NCBI RefSeq assembly: GCF_000526315.1
Contig: NZ_JAFV01000001.1
Coordinates: 2,604,001 to 2,668,000, forward strand
Length of the DNA: 64,000 bases
Origin: Methylopila sp. 73B
GTDB lineage: Bacteria; Pseudomonadota; Alphaproteobacteria; Rhizobiales; Methylopilaceae
Direction of reading: 5' to 3'
In this document: positions 7,849 through 54,665 of the stretch, in pieces
Numbering within the stretch: the first letter of the stretch is position 1
Layout of the letters: every line of letters begins with the position of its first letter
Notes under the pieces: generated by a model
Databases searched by the model: none
Told to the model about the DNA's origin: nothing
What the model saw: the letters and a program-made list of their open reading frames with translations, nothing else
Program-made: the position numbers and the translations under genes

Positions 7849-7873
7849 GGAACCCTATGGGTGCGCTCGCGTT
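7849..7873 (+). promoter_or_regulatory. EcfG-type (general stress) promoter of mscS
   Basis: GGAAC at 7849-7853, a 16-base spacer, then CGTT at 7870-7873 (continuing CC). This is a perfect match to the alphaproteobacterial EcfG/SigT consensus GGAAC-N16/17-CGTT. It lies 35 bases upstream of the mscS ATG, correctly oriented, leaving room for a short leader and a ribosome-binding site. Confidence 0.7.
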
Positions 7874-7907: not shown

Positions 7908-9056
7908 ATGAACGAAGCGGTGACGCTCGTGGAAGGGGCGGCCGAGCGGCTGTCCTGGCTTCCGGACTGGGGCGCCAGCCTCATCCTGCTGGCGCTCGGC
8001 GCGGCGGTCGCGATCGCGGTTCACCGCCTCGCGTTTCGCATGCTGACGACGTTCGTGGCCCAACGCAGCCTGTTCTGGCGCTCGCTGGTGTCCCGCACCC
8101 GCGGCCCGACGCGGCTTGCGGTGCTCATCCTGGTGTTCTCGATCGTGTCGTCGGCGGCTCCGCTCACCGACGGCCAGAGCGACGCCATCCGCCATGGCCT
8201 GCTCGTCGCCTTCATGATCCTGGTCGGCTGGGCGGCGACGACCGCGCTGCACATCTGGACGGTCATCTATCTCAGGAAGTTCAAGCTCGACTCCGAAGAC
8301 AACCTGCTGGCGCGCAAGCACCTGACGCAGATGAAGATCTTCGAGCGCGCCGGCGTCACCCTCCTTGTCGTCGTCACCATTGGCGCCGCGCTGATGACCT
8401 TCGACGGGGTCCGGCAGTACGGCGTGTCGCTGCTCGCCTCCGCCGGCGCCGCGGGGCTCATCCTTGGCCTCGCCATGCAGCCGGTGCTCGCCAACCTCGT
8501 GGCCGGCATCCAGCTCGCCATCACCCAGCCGATCCGGCTCGACGACGCGATCGTGGTCGAGAACGAGTGGGGCTGGGTCGAGGAGATCACCGCGACCTAC
8601 GTCGTGGTGCGGCTGTGGGACTGGCGGCGGCTGGTGCTGCCGCTGAAGTACTTCATCGAGAAGCCGTTCCAGAACTGGACCCGCGAGGGCGCGTCCATCA
8701 TCGGAACGGTGCTGCTCTACGTCGACCACGCCGCGCCGATCGCGCTGATGCGGACGAAGCTGGACGAGCTCGTGAGGGCCTCGCCGCTCTGGGACGGGCA
8801 GGTCGTCAACCTGCAGGTCTCCGACGCCATGGAGCACGTCATCCAGGTGCGCCTGCTGGTCTCGTCGGGCAGTTCGCCCAAGGCGTGGGACCTCCGCTGC
8901 GAGATGCGCGAGAAGATGATCGTGTGGCTGGCTGAGCAGCACCCCTACGCGCTGCCGCGGCTGCGGACCGACATGGGCCGCCAGCCGGCGCCGGACCCGC
9001 GCCAGCAGCAGGCGCGGGAGGAGCGGCCCGCGGCGCTCAAGGCGGCGCGGGCCTGA
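7908..9056 (+). CDS. MscS-family mechanosensitive ion channel (small)
   Basis: A 382-aa inner-membrane channel of the MscS superfamily, expected to release solutes on hypo-osmotic shock. It has four to five membrane helices (about residues 20-180). The pore helix with its Gly/Ala pattern is in SAGAAGLILGLAMQPVLANL (about 186-205), followed by the beta domain (IRLDDAIVVENEWGWVEEI) and a cytoplasmic vestibule; the C-terminal tail is Gln/Arg-rich. The ATG at 7908 follows a strong AGGGGG site; a start at 7839 would add 23 non-homologous residues and begin before the promoter. An EcfG promoter precedes it, so it is probably stress-induced. Confidence 0.92.
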   Translation: MNEAVTLVEGAAERLSWLPDWGASLILLALGAAVAIAVHRLAFRMLTTFVAQRSLFWRSLVSRTRGPTRLAVLILVFSIVSSAAPLTDGQSDAIRHGLLVAFMILVGWAATTALHIWTVIYLRKFKLDSEDNLLARKHLTQMKIFERAGVTLLVVVTIGAALMTFDGVRQYGVSLLASAGAAGLILGLAMQPVLANLVAGIQLAITQPIRLDDAIVVENEWGWVEEITATYVVVRLWDWRRLVLPLKYFIEKPFQNWTREGASIIGTVLLYVDHAAPIALMRTKLDELVRASPLWDGQVVNLQVSDAMEHVIQVRLLVSSGSSPKAWDLRCEMREKMIVWLAEQHPYALPRLRTDMGRQPAPDPRQQQAREERPAALKAARA

Positions 9057-11301: not shown

Positions 11302-11499
11302 ATGCGCACCACTGTCGCCATCGATGACGAGTTGATCGCGAAGGCCCAGGAGTACACAGGGGTCAAGGAAAAGGCGACGCTCGTCCGGATGGGCCTCGAG
11401 GCGCTCGTCCATCGTGAAGCCTCGCGCCGCGCCGCAAGGCTCGGAGGCATCGCTCCTGGGTTCAGGGCGCCGCCGCGCCGCAGACTGCCGCCCGAGTGA
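11302..11499 (+). CDS. vapB: VapB-type antitoxin
   Basis: A 65-aa antitoxin with the ribbon-helix-helix start MRTTVAIDDELIAKAQEYTG followed by the VKEKATLVRMGLEALVHREASRRAARLGG dimer helix, typical of VapB partners of PIN toxins. The C-terminal half (residues about 40-65, rich in Arg and Pro) would wrap the toxin. The ATG follows AAGGAGACG (10 bases upstream), a strong site. It overlaps vapC by four bases. As in other TA pairs, VapB is expected to repress its own promoter. Confidence 0.92.
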   Translation: MRTTVAIDDELIAKAQEYTGVKEKATLVRMGLEALVHREASRRAARLGGIAPGFRAPPRRRLPPE

Positions 11500-11867
11500 T
11501 ACTGGTCGACACCTCGGTCTGGGCCGACCACCTCGGCAAGCCCGATAATGCGCTCAGGCAGTTGCTCGACGACGGGCAGGTTCTGATGCACCCCTTCGTC
11601 CTTGGCGAAATCGCTCTTGGAAGCCTGCCAAAGCGCGGCGTCGTGCTTTCGACGCTCGGGGCCATCGACCAATGCGAGGTCGCGTCGATCTCGGAGGTCG
11701 AACAGCTCATCGAGACTCTCGACCTTTGGGAGACAGGCGTCGGCTATGTCGATGTCCATCTGATCGCGTCGACGATCATGATGCTCGACGGCGCCCTCTG
11801 GACCCGGGACCAGCGCCTCAAGACCGCCGCCGAACGCCTGGGCGTCGCGGCGGCGGGTCTCGTCTGA
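11496..11867 (+). CDS. vapC: VapC PIN-domain ribonuclease toxin
   Basis: A 123-aa PIN-domain toxin that cleaves RNA (tRNA or rRNA in studied cases). The acidic active-site residues are visible: the Asp in LVDTSVWADHL (residue 5), Glu in LGEIALGSL (near residue 38), Asp in GVGYVDVHLIAS (about 86) and Asp in LWTRDQRL (about 104). The GTG start at 11496 overlaps vapB (GTGA), so translation is coupled and toxin output is tied to antitoxin. The gene ends only three bases before the converging homospermidine synthase gene. Confidence 0.93.
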   Translation: MILVDTSVWADHLGKPDNALRQLLDDGQVLMHPFVLGEIALGSLPKRGVVLSTLGAIDQCEVASISEVEQLIETLDLWETGVGYVDVHLIASTIMMLDGALWTRDQRLKTAAERLGVAAAGLV

Positions 11868-13463: not shown

Positions 13464-14012
13464 GTGAACGAGCGTGAGCGGGACTGGGCGACGTGGATGA
13501 AAGCGGCCGGAGCGGGCGACGCCGAGGCCTATCGCCGCCTGCTCGGGGAGTTGGCGTCGTTCCTCCGCAGGGTTGTCCGCCGCCGCGCCGGCGCGGGCGT
13601 CGACGAGGCTGAGGTCGAGGACGTCGTGCAGGAGGCTTTGCTCGCCATCCATCTGAAGCGTGGAACCTGGGACCCCGGCCAGCCGGTCGGACCCTGGGTG
13701 GCGACCATCGCGCGGAACAAGCTCACCGACGCCCTGCGCCGCCGTGGGCGGCGCATCGTGGTGCCGATCGAGGACGTGGCTGAGGCGCTCGTCGCGCCCG
13801 GCGAGGACGACGGGCTGTCGCCGCGCGAGACCGACCGCCTGCTCGCCGTGCTCAAAGGCCGCCAGCACGACGTGGTCCGATCGATCACCGTCGAGGGGGC
13901 CGACATCCGCGCCACCGCCGCGAAGCTCGGCATGAGCGAGGGCGCCGTCCGCGTCGCGCTTCATCGCGGGCTGAACGCGCTGTCCGCGGCCTACCGGAGT
14001 TTCCGCGAGTGA
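13464..14012 (+). CDS. ECF RNA polymerase sigma factor (SigF/NrsF-linked type)
   Basis: A 182-aa sigma-70 family ECF factor with region 2 (EVEDVVQEALLAIHLKRGTWD..GPWVATIARNKLTDALRRRGR, residues about 50-95) and region 4 (IRATAAKLGMSEGAVRVALHRGL, about 148-172). The start is a GTG at 13464. The next gene overlaps it by four bases and encodes an NrsF-type anti-sigma factor, so this is a self-contained sigma/anti-sigma pair like SigF-NrsF of Caulobacter, which responds to metal or oxidative stress. It lacks the features of EcfG itself, which is normally next to nepR and phyR. Confidence 0.93.
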   Translation: MNERERDWATWMKAAGAGDAEAYRRLLGELASFLRRVVRRRAGAGVDEAEVEDVVQEALLAIHLKRGTWDPGQPVGPWVATIARNKLTDALRRRGRRIVVPIEDVAEALVAPGEDDGLSPRETDRLLAVLKGRQHDVVRSITVEGADIRATAAKLGMSEGAVRVALHRGLNALSAAYRSFRE

Positions 14013-14647
14013 AGACGAGCGCGCTCATTGACGCCCTCGCCACGGACGCCGGGACGCCGCCCGCGCGGCTGGAGCCGGCCTTCGCCGCCGGCGCCGCGGG
14101 CGCCGTGGTCGTCGCAGGCCTGCTGTTCGCCGCGACGCTTGGGGTGCGGCCGGACGCGGCCGTGGCGCTGGGCGCGGTTCGCTTTCCCTTCAAGTTCGCG
14201 GTCACGCTGGCCGGCGCCGTCGGCGCCGCCGTGCTGGCGCTCCGGCTCGCACGGCCCGGCGCCTCGCTCCGGCCGGGCGTGGTCGCGCTCGGCGTCGCCG
14301 TCGCCCTGCTCGCGAGCGGCGTCGCCGCCGAGCTCGTGGCGACGCCGCGCGACGCCTGGGCGTCGCGGCTCGTGGGCCATAACGCGCTCCTGTGCCTGGC
14401 GAGCGTCACCGGCCTCGCGCTCGGGCCCCTGGCGCTGCTGCTGGCGGCGCTCCGGCGCGGCGCGCCGGCTTCGCCGCGGGCGGCCGGCGCCGCCGCGGGG
14501 CTGTGCGCGGGCGCGATCGCCGCGACCTTCTACGCCGCCCATTGCGTGGACGATTCCCCGCTGTTCGTCGCGACCTGGTATCCGCTGGGCCTCGGCCTCG
14601 TCAGCGCCTTGGGCGCCGCGGCGGGCGAACGCGCCCTGCGGTGGTGA
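14009..14647 (+). CDS. NrsF (DUF1109) membrane anti-sigma factor
   Basis: A 212-aa integral membrane protein with six predicted helices, matching the NrsF/DUF1109 family of anti-sigma factors that hold an ECF sigma at the membrane. Conserved features are the short cytoplasmic N-terminus, the FPFKFAVTLAG segment in the second helix, and the AAHCVDDSPLFVATWYPLG stretch near the C-terminus, whose cysteine is characteristic (in Caulobacter NrsF, conserved cysteines sense the signal). The GTG start overlaps the sigma stop. The rest of the sequence is highly Ala-rich. Confidence 0.9.
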   Translation: MKTSALIDALATDAGTPPARLEPAFAAGAAGAVVVAGLLFAATLGVRPDAAVALGAVRFPFKFAVTLAGAVGAAVLALRLARPGASLRPGVVALGVAVALLASGVAAELVATPRDAWASRLVGHNALLCLASVTGLALGPLALLLAALRRGAPASPRAAGAAAGLCAGAIAATFYAAHCVDDSPLFVATWYPLGLGLVSALGAAAGERALRW

Positions 14648-15782: not shown

Positions 15783-15865
15783 AAGCCGTCTCCTTACTTG
15801 TTGATTGCCGTTACGAGCGGGCACATAGCGCCGGCGCGGCGGATCAACAGGCCGAAACTTCAGGC

Positions 15866-28375: not shown

Positions 28376-28702
28376 TCACCCGCCTTGGGCCTTGAGCTTC
28401 TTACGGACCGCCTCGGCCCATGCCTTGCCAGCGTCCCCGCCCCACAGCAGCCAGGCCACATAGCCGGCCGAGGGGTTGTCGTCGTCGCCGAAGTTCGCGG
28501 CGCGCTTGTCAACCTTGTGGCGGGCGAAGTAGCTGAACATCCGCTGGACGGTCTCTTCGCTCAGCGACTTCCGCGCCGAGAGGTCGCGCGCGCGGGCGAC
28601 GCCAACCTGCGTGCCGCCGCGCTTGTGCGCCTTCCGGAGCTCAAGGCCCTTGGCAGCGGCGTCCGCCACGGCCTTCGTGGGCGTCAGATCGACGTCCGCC
28701 AT
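28376..28702 (-). CDS. Small hypothetical protein, partner of DUF2945 protein
   Basis: A 108-aa hydrophilic, lysine-rich protein. The block SLSEETVQRMFSYFARHKVD followed by a NPSAGYVAWLLWGGDAGKAW motif (about residues 49-95) resembles a module seen in phage head-maturation and related proteins, so it may be a domesticated phage piece (inference from remembered similarity). The ATG at 28702 overlaps the DUF2945 stop by one base (TGATG), so it is translated after that protein. The pair is led by an EcfG promoter. Function unknown; expected to be cytoplasmic. Confidence 0.75.
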   Translation of the reverse strand: MADVDLTPTKAVADAAAKGLELRKAHKRGGTQVGVARARDLSARKSLSEETVQRMFSYFARHKVDKRAANFGDDDNPSAGYVAWLLWGGDAGKAWAEAVRKKLKAQGG

Positions 28703-28957: not shown

Positions 28958-28983
28958 AACGCCGCGGCGGCGCGGCCCGTTCC
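28958..28983 (-). promoter_or_regulatory. EcfG-type (general stress) promoter of the DUF2945 operon
   Basis: On the minus strand GGAAC (28983-28979), a 17-base spacer, then CGTT (28961-28958). Perfect match to the EcfG consensus, 37 bases upstream of the DUF2945 ATG. The gap is divergent with argE, whose own promoter must lie in the same 150 bases. Confidence 0.7.
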
Positions 28984-34189: not shown

Positions 34190-34215
34190 GGAACGAGAGC
34201 CGGCGAAACGACGTT
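34190..34215 (+). promoter_or_regulatory. EcfG-type (general stress) promoter of a small secreted protein
   Basis: GGAAC (34190-34194), 17-base spacer, CGTT (34212-34215). Perfect consensus, 61 bases upstream of the ATG at 34277 in the divergent gap with asd. Confidence 0.65.
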
Positions 34216-34276: not shown

Positions 34277-34564
34277 ATGCTTCGCATTGCGCATGGAACG
34301 GCCGCGTTCATCCTCGCGGCGGGCGTGGCGCTCGCCCCGCTTGCGGCGTCGGCCCAGACCCGCGACCGCGCGTCCTCGGACGGCGGCGTGACCATCACGG
34401 TCCGGAAAGCGCCGAGCTACCTCAACACGCGCACGGTCGCCCGCCCGATGACCGGCGCCGACTACCAGACCTCGGCGCTCTACCAGTCATCGACGCCGAC
34501 CCGCGGCCCCGGCGGCTTCGAGCGCTGGCCGCTGCCGTCGACCTTCGACGTTCCCGGCTACTGA
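34277..34564 (+). CDS. Small secreted protein, EcfG-promoter linked
   Basis: A 95-aa product with a Sec signal peptide (hydrophobic core residues 9-22, cleavage after about ASA near residue 26), then a Thr/Ser/Arg-rich mature part ending RWPLPSTFDVPGY. I do not recognise a family. The ATG at 34277 is preceded by GGAGG at five bases; an upstream ATG at 34265 is less well placed. Likely periplasmic or outer-membrane associated. The EcfG promoter suggests that it is made under general stress. Confidence 0.75.
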   Translation: MLRIAHGTAAFILAAGVALAPLAASAQTRDRASSDGGVTITVRKAPSYLNTRTVARPMTGADYQTSALYQSSTPTRGPGGFERWPLPSTFDVPGY

Positions 34565-49812: not shown

Positions 49813-49991
49813 CGAAGGCGGCTCCGGAGAGGTTGCGAGACGCGGCGGACCATAGGCGCAGCGTTCCGTGGGGCCAAGCCTCTCTCGTTCTCTGCGCCGC
49901 GCCGATCGTTTCGGGCAAGCCAATCGCCGGGCGCCGACGCATGACGACCTTGCGCCGGCCACGCCGCAGCCTCGCCTCATTCGCGAACGAT

Positions 49992-50022
49992 CAATTCAAT
50001 GTTGCGTCGCAGCATTGAATTG
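49992..50022. promoter_or_regulatory. Long perfect palindrome upstream of the PHB-depolymerase-type gene
   Basis: A 31-base inverted repeat: arms CAATTCAATG (49992-50001) and CATTGAATTG (50013-50022), continuing inward through a T-G wobble and TGCG/CGCA to a single central T. The centre reads TTGC-GTC-GCAG, close to the CTGC-N3/4-GCAG pattern described for PhaR of Paracoccus. It lies 74 bases before the esterase start and 180 bases before the DUF3297 start on the other side. The AT-rich arms are out of place in this GC-rich genome. Confidence 0.55.
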
Positions 50023-50095
50023 TGCCCTGCGGCGCCCACCTGATCTCAGCGACGACGACGTCCCCCGGTCGTTGCGCCAAAAGACTGGATGCGCC

Positions 50096-51313
50096 ATGGC
50101 CCGCTTCGGCGATCTCGCCTCGGAACTGAACCCGTTCCTGAAGATGTGGTCGCTCGACGGCGGCGGCGCCTCCGCGGCCCGCAGCGCCCCCGCCGACGCG
50201 CGGCTCGCGACGGTCGCCGAGTTCGGCGGCAACCCCGGCGACCTCGTCATGCGGAGCTACACGCCCACGGGACTCGCGCGCGGATCGGCGCTGGTCGTGG
50301 TGCTGCACGGCTGCACCCAGACCGCAGCGAGCTTCGAGCAGAGCGCGGCCTGGACCGCGCTCGCGGACGAGCACGGGTTCGCCGTGCTCTATCCCGAGCA
50401 GCATGCGGGCAACAACCCGAAGCGCTGCTTCAACTGGTTCAACCCCGAGGACGTCGCCCGCGGCGCCGGCGAAGCGGCCTCTATCCGCGCCATGGTCGAG
50501 ACCATGGTCGCCGGGCATGGGCTCGACCGCCGCCGGGTGTTCGTGACCGGGCTGTCGGCCGGCGGCGCGATGACCTCCGCGCTGCTCGCGGCCTATCCCG
50601 ACGTCTTCGCCGGCGGCGCGATCATGGCCGGACTGCCCTGCGGGGCGGCGTCGTCCGTGCCGCAGGCCTTCGAGAGCATGTACAAGGGCGCCGCCCGACC
50701 GGCCCGCGAATGGGGCGACGCCGTCCGGGACGCCTCGGACCATGGCGGCCCTTGGCCGAAGGTGAGCGTCTGGCACGGCGGCGCGGACTCGACCGTCGTT
50801 CCCTCCAACGGCGACGAGATCGTGAAGCAGTGGCTCGACGTCCACGGGCTTCATAGCGCGAAGCCGACCGTCGAGCGCAAGGGCGGCCGCACCCGCCGGG
50901 TCTGGACCGGCCCGGACGGCGACGCCGTCATCGAACAGCACGTCGTCGCCGGCATGAACCACGGCGTCGCGCTCGACGCCCGGCGCGGCGAGACGCCCGG
51001 TCCCTTCATGCTGGACGTCGGCGTGTCGGCCAACCGCGACGTGCTCGCGTTCTGGGGCCTCGCCACGGCGAAGTCCGCGGCCAAGGACGCTGGCAAGAAC
51101 GCCGGCAGGGACAGCGCCAAAAGCGCTCCTGAGGCCACCGCCGAGCCCCTTCGCCCCGCGTCGGCCCGCCGACCCGCCGCCGCGACGACGGCGGCCAAGC
51201 CGTCCCGCAGCGGCTTCGCCGGCCGCATGGAGCCGGAGCCCCGACGCAGGGGCGGCATCGACGTGCAGGGCGTGATCGCCAAGGCGCTGAAGGCCGCCGG
51301 CCTGATGAAGTGA
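50096..51313 (+). CDS. PHB depolymerase family esterase
   Basis: A 405-aa alpha/beta hydrolase of the short-chain PHA depolymerase/esterase family. The nucleophile is in GLSAGGAMT (about residue 153), with the oxyanion segment VVVLHGCTQTAASFEQ (about 64-79) and the catalytic His in AGMNHGVAL. There is no signal peptide, so it is probably intracellular, acting on stored or small esters. The C-terminal part (about 315-405) is a Lys/Ala/Arg-rich linker followed by the short GGIDVQGVIAKALKAAGL segment. The ATG at 50096 was chosen because the upstream frame runs through the palindrome. Confidence 0.85.
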   Translation: MARFGDLASELNPFLKMWSLDGGGASAARSAPADARLATVAEFGGNPGDLVMRSYTPTGLARGSALVVVLHGCTQTAASFEQSAAWTALADEHGFAVLYPEQHAGNNPKRCFNWFNPEDVARGAGEAASIRAMVETMVAGHGLDRRRVFVTGLSAGGAMTSALLAAYPDVFAGGAIMAGLPCGAASSVPQAFESMYKGAARPAREWGDAVRDASDHGGPWPKVSVWHGGADSTVVPSNGDEIVKQWLDVHGLHSAKPTVERKGGRTRRVWTGPDGDAVIEQHVVAGMNHGVALDARRGETPGPFMLDVGVSANRDVLAFWGLATAKSAAKDAGKNAGRDSAKSAPEATAEPLRPASARRPAAATTAAKPSRSGFAGRMEPEPRRRGGIDVQGVIAKALKAAGLMK

Positions 51314-51320
51314 CGCCGCC

Positions 51321-51346
51321 GGAACGCCTCGTCGCCGCCCCGCGTT
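51321..51346 (+). promoter_or_regulatory. EcfG-type (general stress) promoter of the treS operon
   Basis: GGAAC (51321-51325), 17-base spacer, CGTT (51343-51346). Perfect consensus, 32 bases before the treS-like ATG and eight bases after the esterase gene. Trehalose genes are a known class of EcfG targets. Confidence 0.72.
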
Positions 51347-51378
51347 GACCGTGGGGCGACACGGCTGCGGGCGGGCGA

Positions 51379-53046
51379 ATGATCACGGACCTCTGGTACA
51401 AGAACGCGATCGTCTACTGTCTCTCGGTCGAGAGCTTCATGGACTCGAACGGCGACGGGGTCGGCGACTTCCCCGGGTTGACGCGCCGGCTCGATTACCT
51501 CCACGGCCTCGGCGTCACCGCTGTCTGGTTGATGCCGTTCCAGCCCTCGCCGGGGCGCGACGACGGCTACGACGTCTCAGACTATTACAATGTTGACCCG
51601 CGCTACGGCTCGCTCGGCGATTTCGTGGAGTTCACCCACGCGGCGAAGCAGCGCGGCATGCGCGTTCTGATCGACCTCGTGGTCAACCACACCTCCGACC
51701 AGCACCCCTGGTTCAAGTCCGCCCGCAAGGATCCCAAGTCGCCGTTCCGCGACTGGTACGTCTGGTCGAAGACCAAGCCGAAGAACGCCGACGAAGGCAT
51801 GGTCTTTCCCGGCGTCCAGAAGACGACGTGGACGCGCGACGACGCGGCCAAGGCCTATTACTTCCACCGCTTCTACGAGTTCCAGCCTGACCTCAACACC
51901 TCCAACCCTGAGGTGCAGGCCGAGATCCTCAAGATCATGGGGTTCTGGATCCAGCTCGGCGTGTCCGGCTTCCGCATGGACGCCGTGCCCTTCGTCATCG
52001 CCGAGAAGGGGGCGGACGTGACGACGCCGAAGGAGCAGTTCGAGATGCTCCGCTCGTTCCGGGAGTTCCTGCAGTGGCGCAAGGGCGACAGCGTCATTCT
52101 CGCCGAAGCCAACGTCCTGCCCGAAGACGACATGAAGTACTTCGGGAACGACGGCGATCGCATGCAGATGATGTTCAACTTCCAGGTCAACCAGCGGCTG
52201 TTTTATGCGCTGGCGAGCGCCGACGTCGCGCCGCTGGAGAAGGCCCTCAAGGACACGCGGCCGGGCTATCCCACGGCGCAGTGGGGCATGTTCCTGCGCA
52301 ACCACGACGAGCTGGACCTCGGGCGTCTGACCGAGGAGCAACGTCAGGCGGCCTTCGCCGCCTTCGGACCCGAGAAATCGATGCAGCTCTACGACCGTGG
52401 CGTGCGACGGCGTTTGGCCCCCATGCTGAAGGGCGACCGCCGCCGGCTTGAGCTCGCCTACAGCCTGATGTTCGCCCTGCCGGGGACGCCCGTGCTGCGC
52501 TACGGCGACGAGATCGCCATGGGCGACGACCTCGACCTGCCCGAGCGCTACTGCGCGCGCACGCCGATGCAGTGGGCGAACGAGCAGAACGGCGGCTTCA
52601 GCACAGCTGAAAAGACTTATTTGCCGGCTATCTCAGGTGGCGGCTACGGCTATCAGTCCGTCAACGTGGCGCAGCAGCGGCGCGATCCGAACTCGTTCCT
52701 GAACTGGCTGGAGCGGCTCGTCCGGATGCGGCAGGAGACGCCGGAGATCGGCTGGGGCGACTACCAGATCCTCCGCACGGGCGCGAAGGGCGTGCTCGCC
52801 ATGCGCTACGACTGGCGCGGAAACGCCGCGGTGTTCCTGCACAACTTCGGCGAGGAAGGCTGCGACATCGCCTTTCGCAGCGGCGGGGCTGAGGGCGAGC
52901 CCGACCATCTTGTCAATCTGCTGTCCGCCGACCACAGCCGCCCCGGACCCGACGGTCGCCATCACGTCACGCTCGAGCCCTACGGCTACCGCTGGTACCG
53001 CCTCGGCCGCCTGGACGAGACCCAGCGCCGCACCGCCGCCGCGTGA
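51379..53046 (+). CDS. treS: GH13 trehalose synthase-like enzyme (TreS type)
   Basis: A 555-aa GH13 alpha-amylase-family enzyme resembling maltose alpha-D-glucosyltransferase (trehalose synthase). Residues: nucleophile Asp in GFRMDAVPFV (about residue 199), acid-base Glu in ILAEANVLPE (about 240) and Asp in RNHDELDLGR (about 312). NGDGVGDFPGLTRRLDYLHGLGVTAVWLMPF near residue 24 is the usual first barrel strand. It lacks the maltokinase fusion present in many TreS proteins. The promoter and the next gene suggest a stress-induced sugar operon. It may instead act as a glucosidase/isomaltase; the symbol is used with reserve. Confidence 0.72.
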   Translation: MITDLWYKNAIVYCLSVESFMDSNGDGVGDFPGLTRRLDYLHGLGVTAVWLMPFQPSPGRDDGYDVSDYYNVDPRYGSLGDFVEFTHAAKQRGMRVLIDLVVNHTSDQHPWFKSARKDPKSPFRDWYVWSKTKPKNADEGMVFPGVQKTTWTRDDAAKAYYFHRFYEFQPDLNTSNPEVQAEILKIMGFWIQLGVSGFRMDAVPFVIAEKGADVTTPKEQFEMLRSFREFLQWRKGDSVILAEANVLPEDDMKYFGNDGDRMQMMFNFQVNQRLFYALASADVAPLEKALKDTRPGYPTAQWGMFLRNHDELDLGRLTEEQRQAAFAAFGPEKSMQLYDRGVRRRLAPMLKGDRRRLELAYSLMFALPGTPVLRYGDEIAMGDDLDLPERYCARTPMQWANEQNGGFSTAEKTYLPAISGGGYGYQSVNVAQQRRDPNSFLNWLERLVRMRQETPEIGWGDYQILRTGAKGVLAMRYDWRGNAAVFLHNFGEEGCDIAFRSGGAEGEPDHLVNLLSADHSRPGPDGRHHVTLEPYGYRWYRLGRLDETQRRTAAA

Positions 53047-53081
53047 CCTCCCCGCCTGACGCCAGCTTCCAGGATCGATCC

Positions 53082-54660
<1,579 letters not shown>

Positions 54661-54665
<5 letters not shown>

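Follow-up and report, generated by a model that had tools for sequence, protein, structure and literature searches.

A trehalose-synthase-like (treS-like) gene of Methylopila sp. 73B stands a short distance behind the sequence GGAAC-N17-CGTT, which raises the question of whether this sequence is a genuine promoter of the general stress sigma factor EcfG, and which further genes such a regulon would include. The PhyR-NepR-EcfG switch is established in other alphaproteobacteria. We analyzed one stretch of DNA of 64,000 nucleotides (hereafter the window) together with related genomes. A first-pass annotation had placed a perfect GGAAC-N17-CGTT at 51321..51346, 32 bases ahead of the gene, and both the coordinates and the spacing to the ATG at 51379 were reproduced. 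The site falls within the 65 bp that separate a PHB-depolymerase-type gene from the treS-like GH13 gene, just past the stop codon of the former. The features discussed below are compiled in Table 1, where G000 denotes the genome of this strain and the other positions are those of the window.

Table 1. Promoter sites, genes behind them and regulator genes
Feature	Position	Strand	Basis
EcfG-type promoter GGAAC-N16-CGTT of mscS-like gene	7849..7873	+	pattern match and genus conservation
MscS-family mechanosensitive channel homologue, 382 aa	7908..9056	+	PF00924 beta domain, 45.5 bits (cut-off 20.2)
Second small gene, 108 aa, optional DUF2945 partner	28376..28702	-	one-base overlap with end of DUF2945 gene
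DUF2945/Hva1_TUDOR small protein, 72 aa	28702..28920	-	PF11160, 61.1 bits (cut-off 24.1)
EcfG-type promoter GGAAC-N17-CGTT of DUF2945 gene	28958..28983	-	pattern match and genus conservation
EcfG-type promoter GGAAC-N17-CGTT of small secreted-protein gene	34190..34215	+	pattern match; variant -35 in most relatives
Small protein, 95 aa, signal-peptide-like start (read by eye from the sequence)	34277..34564	+	translation
PHB-depolymerase-type esterase, upstream neighbor of treS-like gene	49868..51313	+	NF050058, above cut-off
EcfG-type promoter GGAAC-N17-CGTT of treS-like gene	51321..51346	+	pattern match and genus conservation
treS-like GH13 gene, 555 aa, stand-alone trehalose synthase homologue	51379..53046	+	TIGR02456, PF00128, structural relatives
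Second GH13 gene, alpha-glucosidase type	53043..54665	+	PF00128; start GTG 53043 or ATG 53082
phyR	G000:C1:2328787-2329581		NF006623, 359.8 bits (cut-off 240)
nepR	G000:C1:2330828-2331034		PF18557
ecfG	G000:C1:2331031-2331594		above NF009199 (general name); overlaps nepR
Histidine kinase adjoining ecfG	G000:C1:2331637-2333001		PhyK-like, below cut-off

The treS-like locus and conservation of its promoter

The protein encoded behind the site matched the TreS family TIGR02456 over positions 2-538 of 539 with 597 bits; because the curated cut-off of 678 was not reached, we use the label treS-like. Among solved structures it is closest to trehalose synthases (e.g., 5x7u and 4tvu), and the nearest solved relatives of the second GH13 protein are alpha-glucosidases (e.g., 7voh and 3wy1). 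The second gene directly adjoins the treS-like gene in 8 of 11 genus loci for which a 1.5-kb flank was scanned, and the two probably form a two-gene trehalose/maltose operon. Elsewhere in the same genome, a second, larger treS-type gene is located at G000:C1:180373-181983 (minus strand), with an open frame of 1323 aa and 42% identity to the window copy. About 3 kb from this larger gene, a glgX-type gene has a site at 184635 that is common to this genome and to G003, the genome of a second species in the genus.

Conservation of the treS-like and mscS-like sites was assessed by reading 26 treS-type and 13 mscS-type loci on the gene strand and counting only the genus orthologues, 11 and 8, respectively. 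All 11 genus loci with a treS-like orthologue have a perfect site, which stands 27-39 bp ahead of the point where the protein match begins; among the 13 genus genomes searched, the orthologue was absent from G004 and G005. These 11 loci leave out a second treS-like copy in G012 (G012:C1:3148709-3150371, minus strand), whose match is split into two adjoining parts in different frames, as though the gene were broken. The spacer between the two boxes is identical in G009 and similar in G011, the nearest relatives, and has diverged in the remaining, more distant genomes. In a dyad test, each of the 391 5+4-base dyads of the 220-bp upstream region was scored by the number of other genomes keeping it, and GGAAC/CGTT was the best-kept pair ahead of treS (10 of 10 other genomes; runner-up, 7). 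Background hit rates from 120-bp windows of the same loci were 0-0.5% in the genus tests, and the accompanying binomial P values are overstated, as relatives were treated as independent. Outside the genus but within the family, a perfect site also precedes the stand-alone TreS homologues found in G013 and G014 (45% identity), and none was found upstream of the larger treS genes of fused type in G015-G017. Judged from sequence comparison, 51321-51346 is a conserved EcfG-type promoter, and its retention ahead of the treS-like gene in related genomes is our reason for reading it as genuine.

The close upstream neighbor leaves room for a different emphasis, namely that most transcription of the treS-like gene comes by read-through from the PHB-depolymerase gene, with the EcfG site as a minor promoter. 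Both genes lie on the same strand with only the 65-bp gap between them, the scan of 51100-51600 disclosed neither a terminator-like nor a sigma-70-like site, and the PHB-depolymerase-type neighbor was found in the upstream 1.5-kb flank at 10 of the 11 genus loci. At the one locus whose flank lacks this neighbor (L008, from G007), however, the site is kept. We consider predominant read-through unlikely; it is also compatible with EcfG acting at the site, so that the two explanations are not exclusive.

The treS-like type is widespread, and the 80 best-matching named loci come from alpha- and betaproteobacteria, Bacteroidetes, Actinobacteria, and further groups. Closest among them is Methylopila sp. 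Yamaguchi (98%), followed by Hansschlegelia species (76-80%). After these 80 loci were sorted by hand, a perfect site within 250 bp was recorded for 5 of the 51 alphaproteobacterial loci and for none of the 29 others. All five are close kin (76-98% identity), and four of them appear to be the genus genomes G011, G006, G001, and G003 already counted above. Direct EcfG control of the treS-like type across the alphaproteobacteria was thus not found among these loci. When the distance was extended to 3 kb, perfect sites on the gene strand occurred at 12 of 51 alphaproteobacterial loci and 1 of 29 others (opposite strand, 2 of 51 and 0 of 29), compared with 1 of 51 alphaproteobacterial loci for each of two control patterns on the gene strand (2 of 29 and 0 of 29 for the others). 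The sites within 3 kb include four in Rhizobiaceae at 1119-1129 bp and two in Rhodopseudomonas at 521-522 bp, and these distal sites are perhaps promoters of longer operons.

Three further sites in the window

A search for GGAAC-N15-19-CGTT returned exactly four perfect sites in the window, one with N16 and three with N17 (Table 1), and each is oriented toward a gene (starts at 7908, 28920, 34277, and 51379). The earlier observation of four correctly oriented sites preceding genes was therefore confirmed in full. The mscS-like site is perfect in seven of eight genus orthologues, and the eighth (G003) has TGTT as its -10 box; in the dyad test, GGAAC/CGTT was again the best-kept pair (6 of 7 other genomes; runner-up, 5).

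The site before the DUF2945 gene is perfect in 9 of 12 genus orthologues, and the other three combine GGAAC with GGTT or AGTT, so that all 12 match when one change in the -10 box is allowed. As at the treS-like locus, the spacers of the mscS-like and DUF2945 sites vary among the remoter genus members. G002 gave no DUF2945 match in the search of the 13 genus genomes. Here, GGAAC/CGTT was joint best with two other dyads (8 of 11 other genomes). The first-pass annotation had spoken of a DUF2945 pair; DUF2945 itself held up as a constant target, whereas the second gene, which overlaps it, adjoins it at only 5 of 12 genus loci. Neither Pfam nor NCBIfam gave a hit for this 108-aa partner at the thresholds used, and it matched positions 160-260 of the 740-position phage family phrog_2859, whose function is unknown.

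The small secreted protein was matched in 12 of 12 other genus genomes, and no known family was found for it in Pfam or NCBIfam at the thresholds used. Its site reads GGAAC...CGTT at 4 of 13 genus loci, GCAAC...CGTT at 8 of 13, and neither at one (G004). The perfect form is restricted to this genome and to the three whose protein is most like its own, and GCAAC-N16/17-CGTT is found in eight of the nine remaining members. GGAAC/CGTT was not among the best-kept dyads ahead of this gene (3 of 12 other genomes versus 6 for the best). GCAAC is a published -35 box of the general stress response (passage in PMC7083833). In the sister genus g3, GGAAC-N16-CATT precedes the secreted-protein gene at four of four loci (L169-L172), a consistent change from CGTT. 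The proposed membership of this gene is credible with a variant -35 box, as G[G/C]AAC is kept at 12 of 13 loci and the exact GGAAC at 4 of 13.

Regulator genes and the assignment to EcfG

NepR was found once in this genome, above the cut-off of PF18557 and below the NCBIfam cut-off. The order of genes around it is phyR, a Dps-like gene, nepR, ecfG, and the histidine kinase gene, and the sigma gene is called EcfG because it overlaps nepR. EcfG orthologues with 84-99% identity were present in 12 of 12 other genus genomes. Upstream of nepR-ecfG, only AGAAC-N16-CGTT was found in this genome, at 15790-15814 of locus L002 in a near-palindromic stretch before nepR; one near relative has GGAAC at this place. 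Across the genus, the site is perfect at 1 of 13 loci, nothing corresponds to it in that position at 10 of 13, and autoregulation of nepR-ecfG is accordingly not supported. A near-consensus GAAAC-N16-CGTT also occurs ahead of the Dps-like gene (L002, 14678-14702).

The four sites could alternatively be true ECF-type promoters that are read by a different ECF sigma factor, either on its own or alongside EcfG. Candidates exist, as a search with EcfG gave seven matches in this genome, EcfG itself included. Among the possible competitors are an ECF gene in the window (13464-14012) beside an NrsF-type anti-sigma gene and another at G000:C1:3240260 (37% identity), and closer EcfG paralogues (48-52%) are encoded in G002, G011, and G008. 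However, the nepR-linked factor alone is highly similar throughout the genus, in all 12 other genomes. The gene at 13464, with its NrsF-like neighbor, exceeds the threshold of another sigma model, NF009165, and the gene at 3240260 is followed by one that, read by eye, resembles an anti-sigma factor of the membrane type. Ku and trehalose genes, which are among the shared targets, are moreover known to be under EcfG elsewhere. We therefore regard another sigma factor as a very improbable reader of these sites.

Two gene pairs in the window were noted in passing. In the sigma/anti-sigma pair at 13464-14647 (plus strand), the sigma gene overlaps the NrsF-type gene at 14009-14647, which reached 98.5 bits with NF042994 (cut-off, 300), an arrangement reminiscent of SigF-NrsF of Caulobacter. 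At 11302-11867 (plus strand), two small overlapping genes resemble those of a VapBC-type antitoxin and a PIN-domain toxin.

Site counts and the shared regulon

Counting of the motif proved far less informative than its conservation. In shuffled windows, the N15-19 pattern occurred 1.74 times on average, with at least four matches in 8 of 100 shuffles. The whole genome (4.38 Mb) contains 74 sites with N16-17. Over the 27 spacings from N4 to N30, 782 matches were counted, of which approximately 708 fall on the 25 spacings other than N16-17, or approximately 28 each. The background expected at two spacings is thus approximately 57 sites, or approximately 0.83 per 64 kb, an approximate figure because some sites (e.g., 184635) were counted under a shorter spacing. 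This agrees well with the earlier rough estimate of 0.7 chance matches per window. The genome-wide excess amounts to only approximately 17 sites; the reversed pattern gave 23 matches in this genome, and G003 has 55 sites versus 38 for its reversed pattern. At the genome's own density of approximately 1.1 sites per 64 kb, the Poisson chance of at least four sites is roughly 0.02 (hand arithmetic), so that the enrichment of the window is at most mild. Because the excess is small, many of the 74 sites are chance matches, a single match proves little, and motif counting was dropped as proof; the four window sites stand above chance because they are conserved in relatives, not because of their number.

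We next compared all 74 sites of this genome with all 55 sites of G003 by their downstream genes, keeping pairs with at least 40% identity. Twenty-five sites share a downstream gene with 24 sites of G003, where approximately one pair would be expected by chance (hand estimate). Two further pairs, in which only paralogous GH13 genes matched (21-22% identity), were left out. A reading-frame heuristic classified 20 of the 25 pairs as non-coding and 5 as coding, and the latter were set aside. Spacer identity in random pairs averaged 0.35 (SD 0.09); 17 of the 25 shared pairs were at or below 0.53, and the three above 0.8 were all among the coding ones. A Pfam search with 10 of the 25 downstream proteins identified GT20 (otsA-type), CBM48 with alpha-amylase (glgX-type), an AI-2E transporter family member, Ku, DUF3072, DUF1236, a molybdopterin oxidoreductase, and DUF883 (below cut-off), along with one weak match and one protein without a match. 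The treS-like and DUF2945 sites of the window belong to the shared set; the mscS-like and secreted-protein sites fall outside it because G003 has TGTT at the former and GCAAC at the latter. The idea that the four matches lie upstream of genes by accident draws on the small excess in both genomes (74 versus approximately 57, and 55 versus 38), yet the presence of the exact motif ahead of the orthologous gene in 11 (treS), 7 (mscS), and 9 (DUF2945) genus genomes, together with the 20 non-coding pairs, leaves it next to no probability, and for three of the four sites the orthologue comparison largely refutes it.

The four window genes are thus credible candidate members of an EcfG regulon, strongly so for the treS-like, mscS-like, and DUF2945 genes and with a variant -35 box in most relatives for the secreted-protein gene. 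The general stress regulon that the first-pass annotation had envisaged is supported by the PhyR, NepR, and EcfG genes and by the conservation of the sites; the motif count alone is weak evidence for it, and the assignment of the sites to EcfG is a prediction from sequence.

Proposed control and comparison with known systems

Inferring sigma specificity, induction, transcription starts, and enzyme activity from sequence, we consider it very probable that EcfG reads 51321-51346 as the promoter of the treS-like operon and also reads the mscS-like, DUF2945, and secreted-protein sites. Under stress, PhyR would be phosphorylated and would take up the anti-sigma factor NepR. EcfG, freed from NepR, would then direct RNA polymerase to GGAAC-N16/17-CGTT, and transcription would start a few bases past CGTT. 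At 51321-51346 this would lead to expression of the treS-like and alpha-glucosidase-type genes, and the same factor would act at the other three sites of the window. The predicted regulon would also include otsA-type, glgX-type, ku, and other genes. This provides a first, conservation-based list of general stress genes for the Methylopila/Hansschlegelia group, with three trehalose-related targets (otsA-type, glgX-type, and treS-like) as well as ku, a channel, and several uncharacterized proteins.

The freshest part of the result concerns DUF2945, which gains a likely physiological setting. Among 192 sampled genomes of the class, 7 hold the gene, this one included. In the six others, a search within 120 bp gave one perfect site and three sites with GGAAC and one -10 change; one of the remaining two has a one-change site 96 bp before the match, just beyond the limit, and the other has none. 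We tentatively suggest, with slightly less than even confidence, that DUF2945/Hva1_TUDOR is an effector of the general stress response across Alphaproteobacteria and that the gene, where present, tends to follow an EcfG promoter directly. If so, being small and carrying a Tudor-type domain, the protein would be a candidate for a binding or protective role in the response to stress. In the open-licence literature searched, outside which many EcfG studies have been published, the one paper found for DUF2945 concerns Pfam, and no paper was found that combines "general stress response" with DUF2945, with "hypervirulence associated protein", or with Methylopila.

In the portions of the published accounts used here, several systems closely resemble this one. 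In Sphingomonas melonis Fr1, MscS, a trehalose gene cluster, and Ku are EcfG dependent, and the motif is GGAAC-N17-20-GTT (PMC6599016). In Sphingopyxis granuli TFA, the motif is GGAAC-N16-CGTT, with an mscS gene and ku-ligD as direct targets; the -35 box is most often GGAAC or GCAAC, and the -10 box is flexible (PMC7083833). Our genome shares with these EcfG (ECF15) regulons the motif, the PhyR-NepR-EcfG regulators, and, as predicted targets, MscS and Ku. It shares with S. granuli the GCAAC -35 box and the variable -10 box, and with S. melonis the presence of trehalose-related genes among the targets, here predicted from their EcfG-type sites. The differences are the genus and DUF2945, which is unnamed among the EcfG targets in those portions of the two accounts. 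In Bradyrhizobium diazoefficiens, according to the part of PMC8092242 used, sigma-EcfG controls the treS gene blr6767 but not its putative paralogue bll0902; one trehalose synthase gene there is thus an EcfG target, as a treS-like gene has an EcfG-type site here. S. melonis gene 1751 ("Glycosidases") is likewise EcfG dependent, with GGAAC-N16-CGTT 26 bp ahead of its predicted start (PMC6599016), and may offer a parallel to the treS-like GH13 gene. Because EcfG control of trehalose genes and MscS has been published for other alphaproteobacteria, the treS-like promoter adds to a known type rather than revealing a new mechanism. The kind of system is known, and what the present analysis adds to it is the gene list for the genus and the link to DUF2945.
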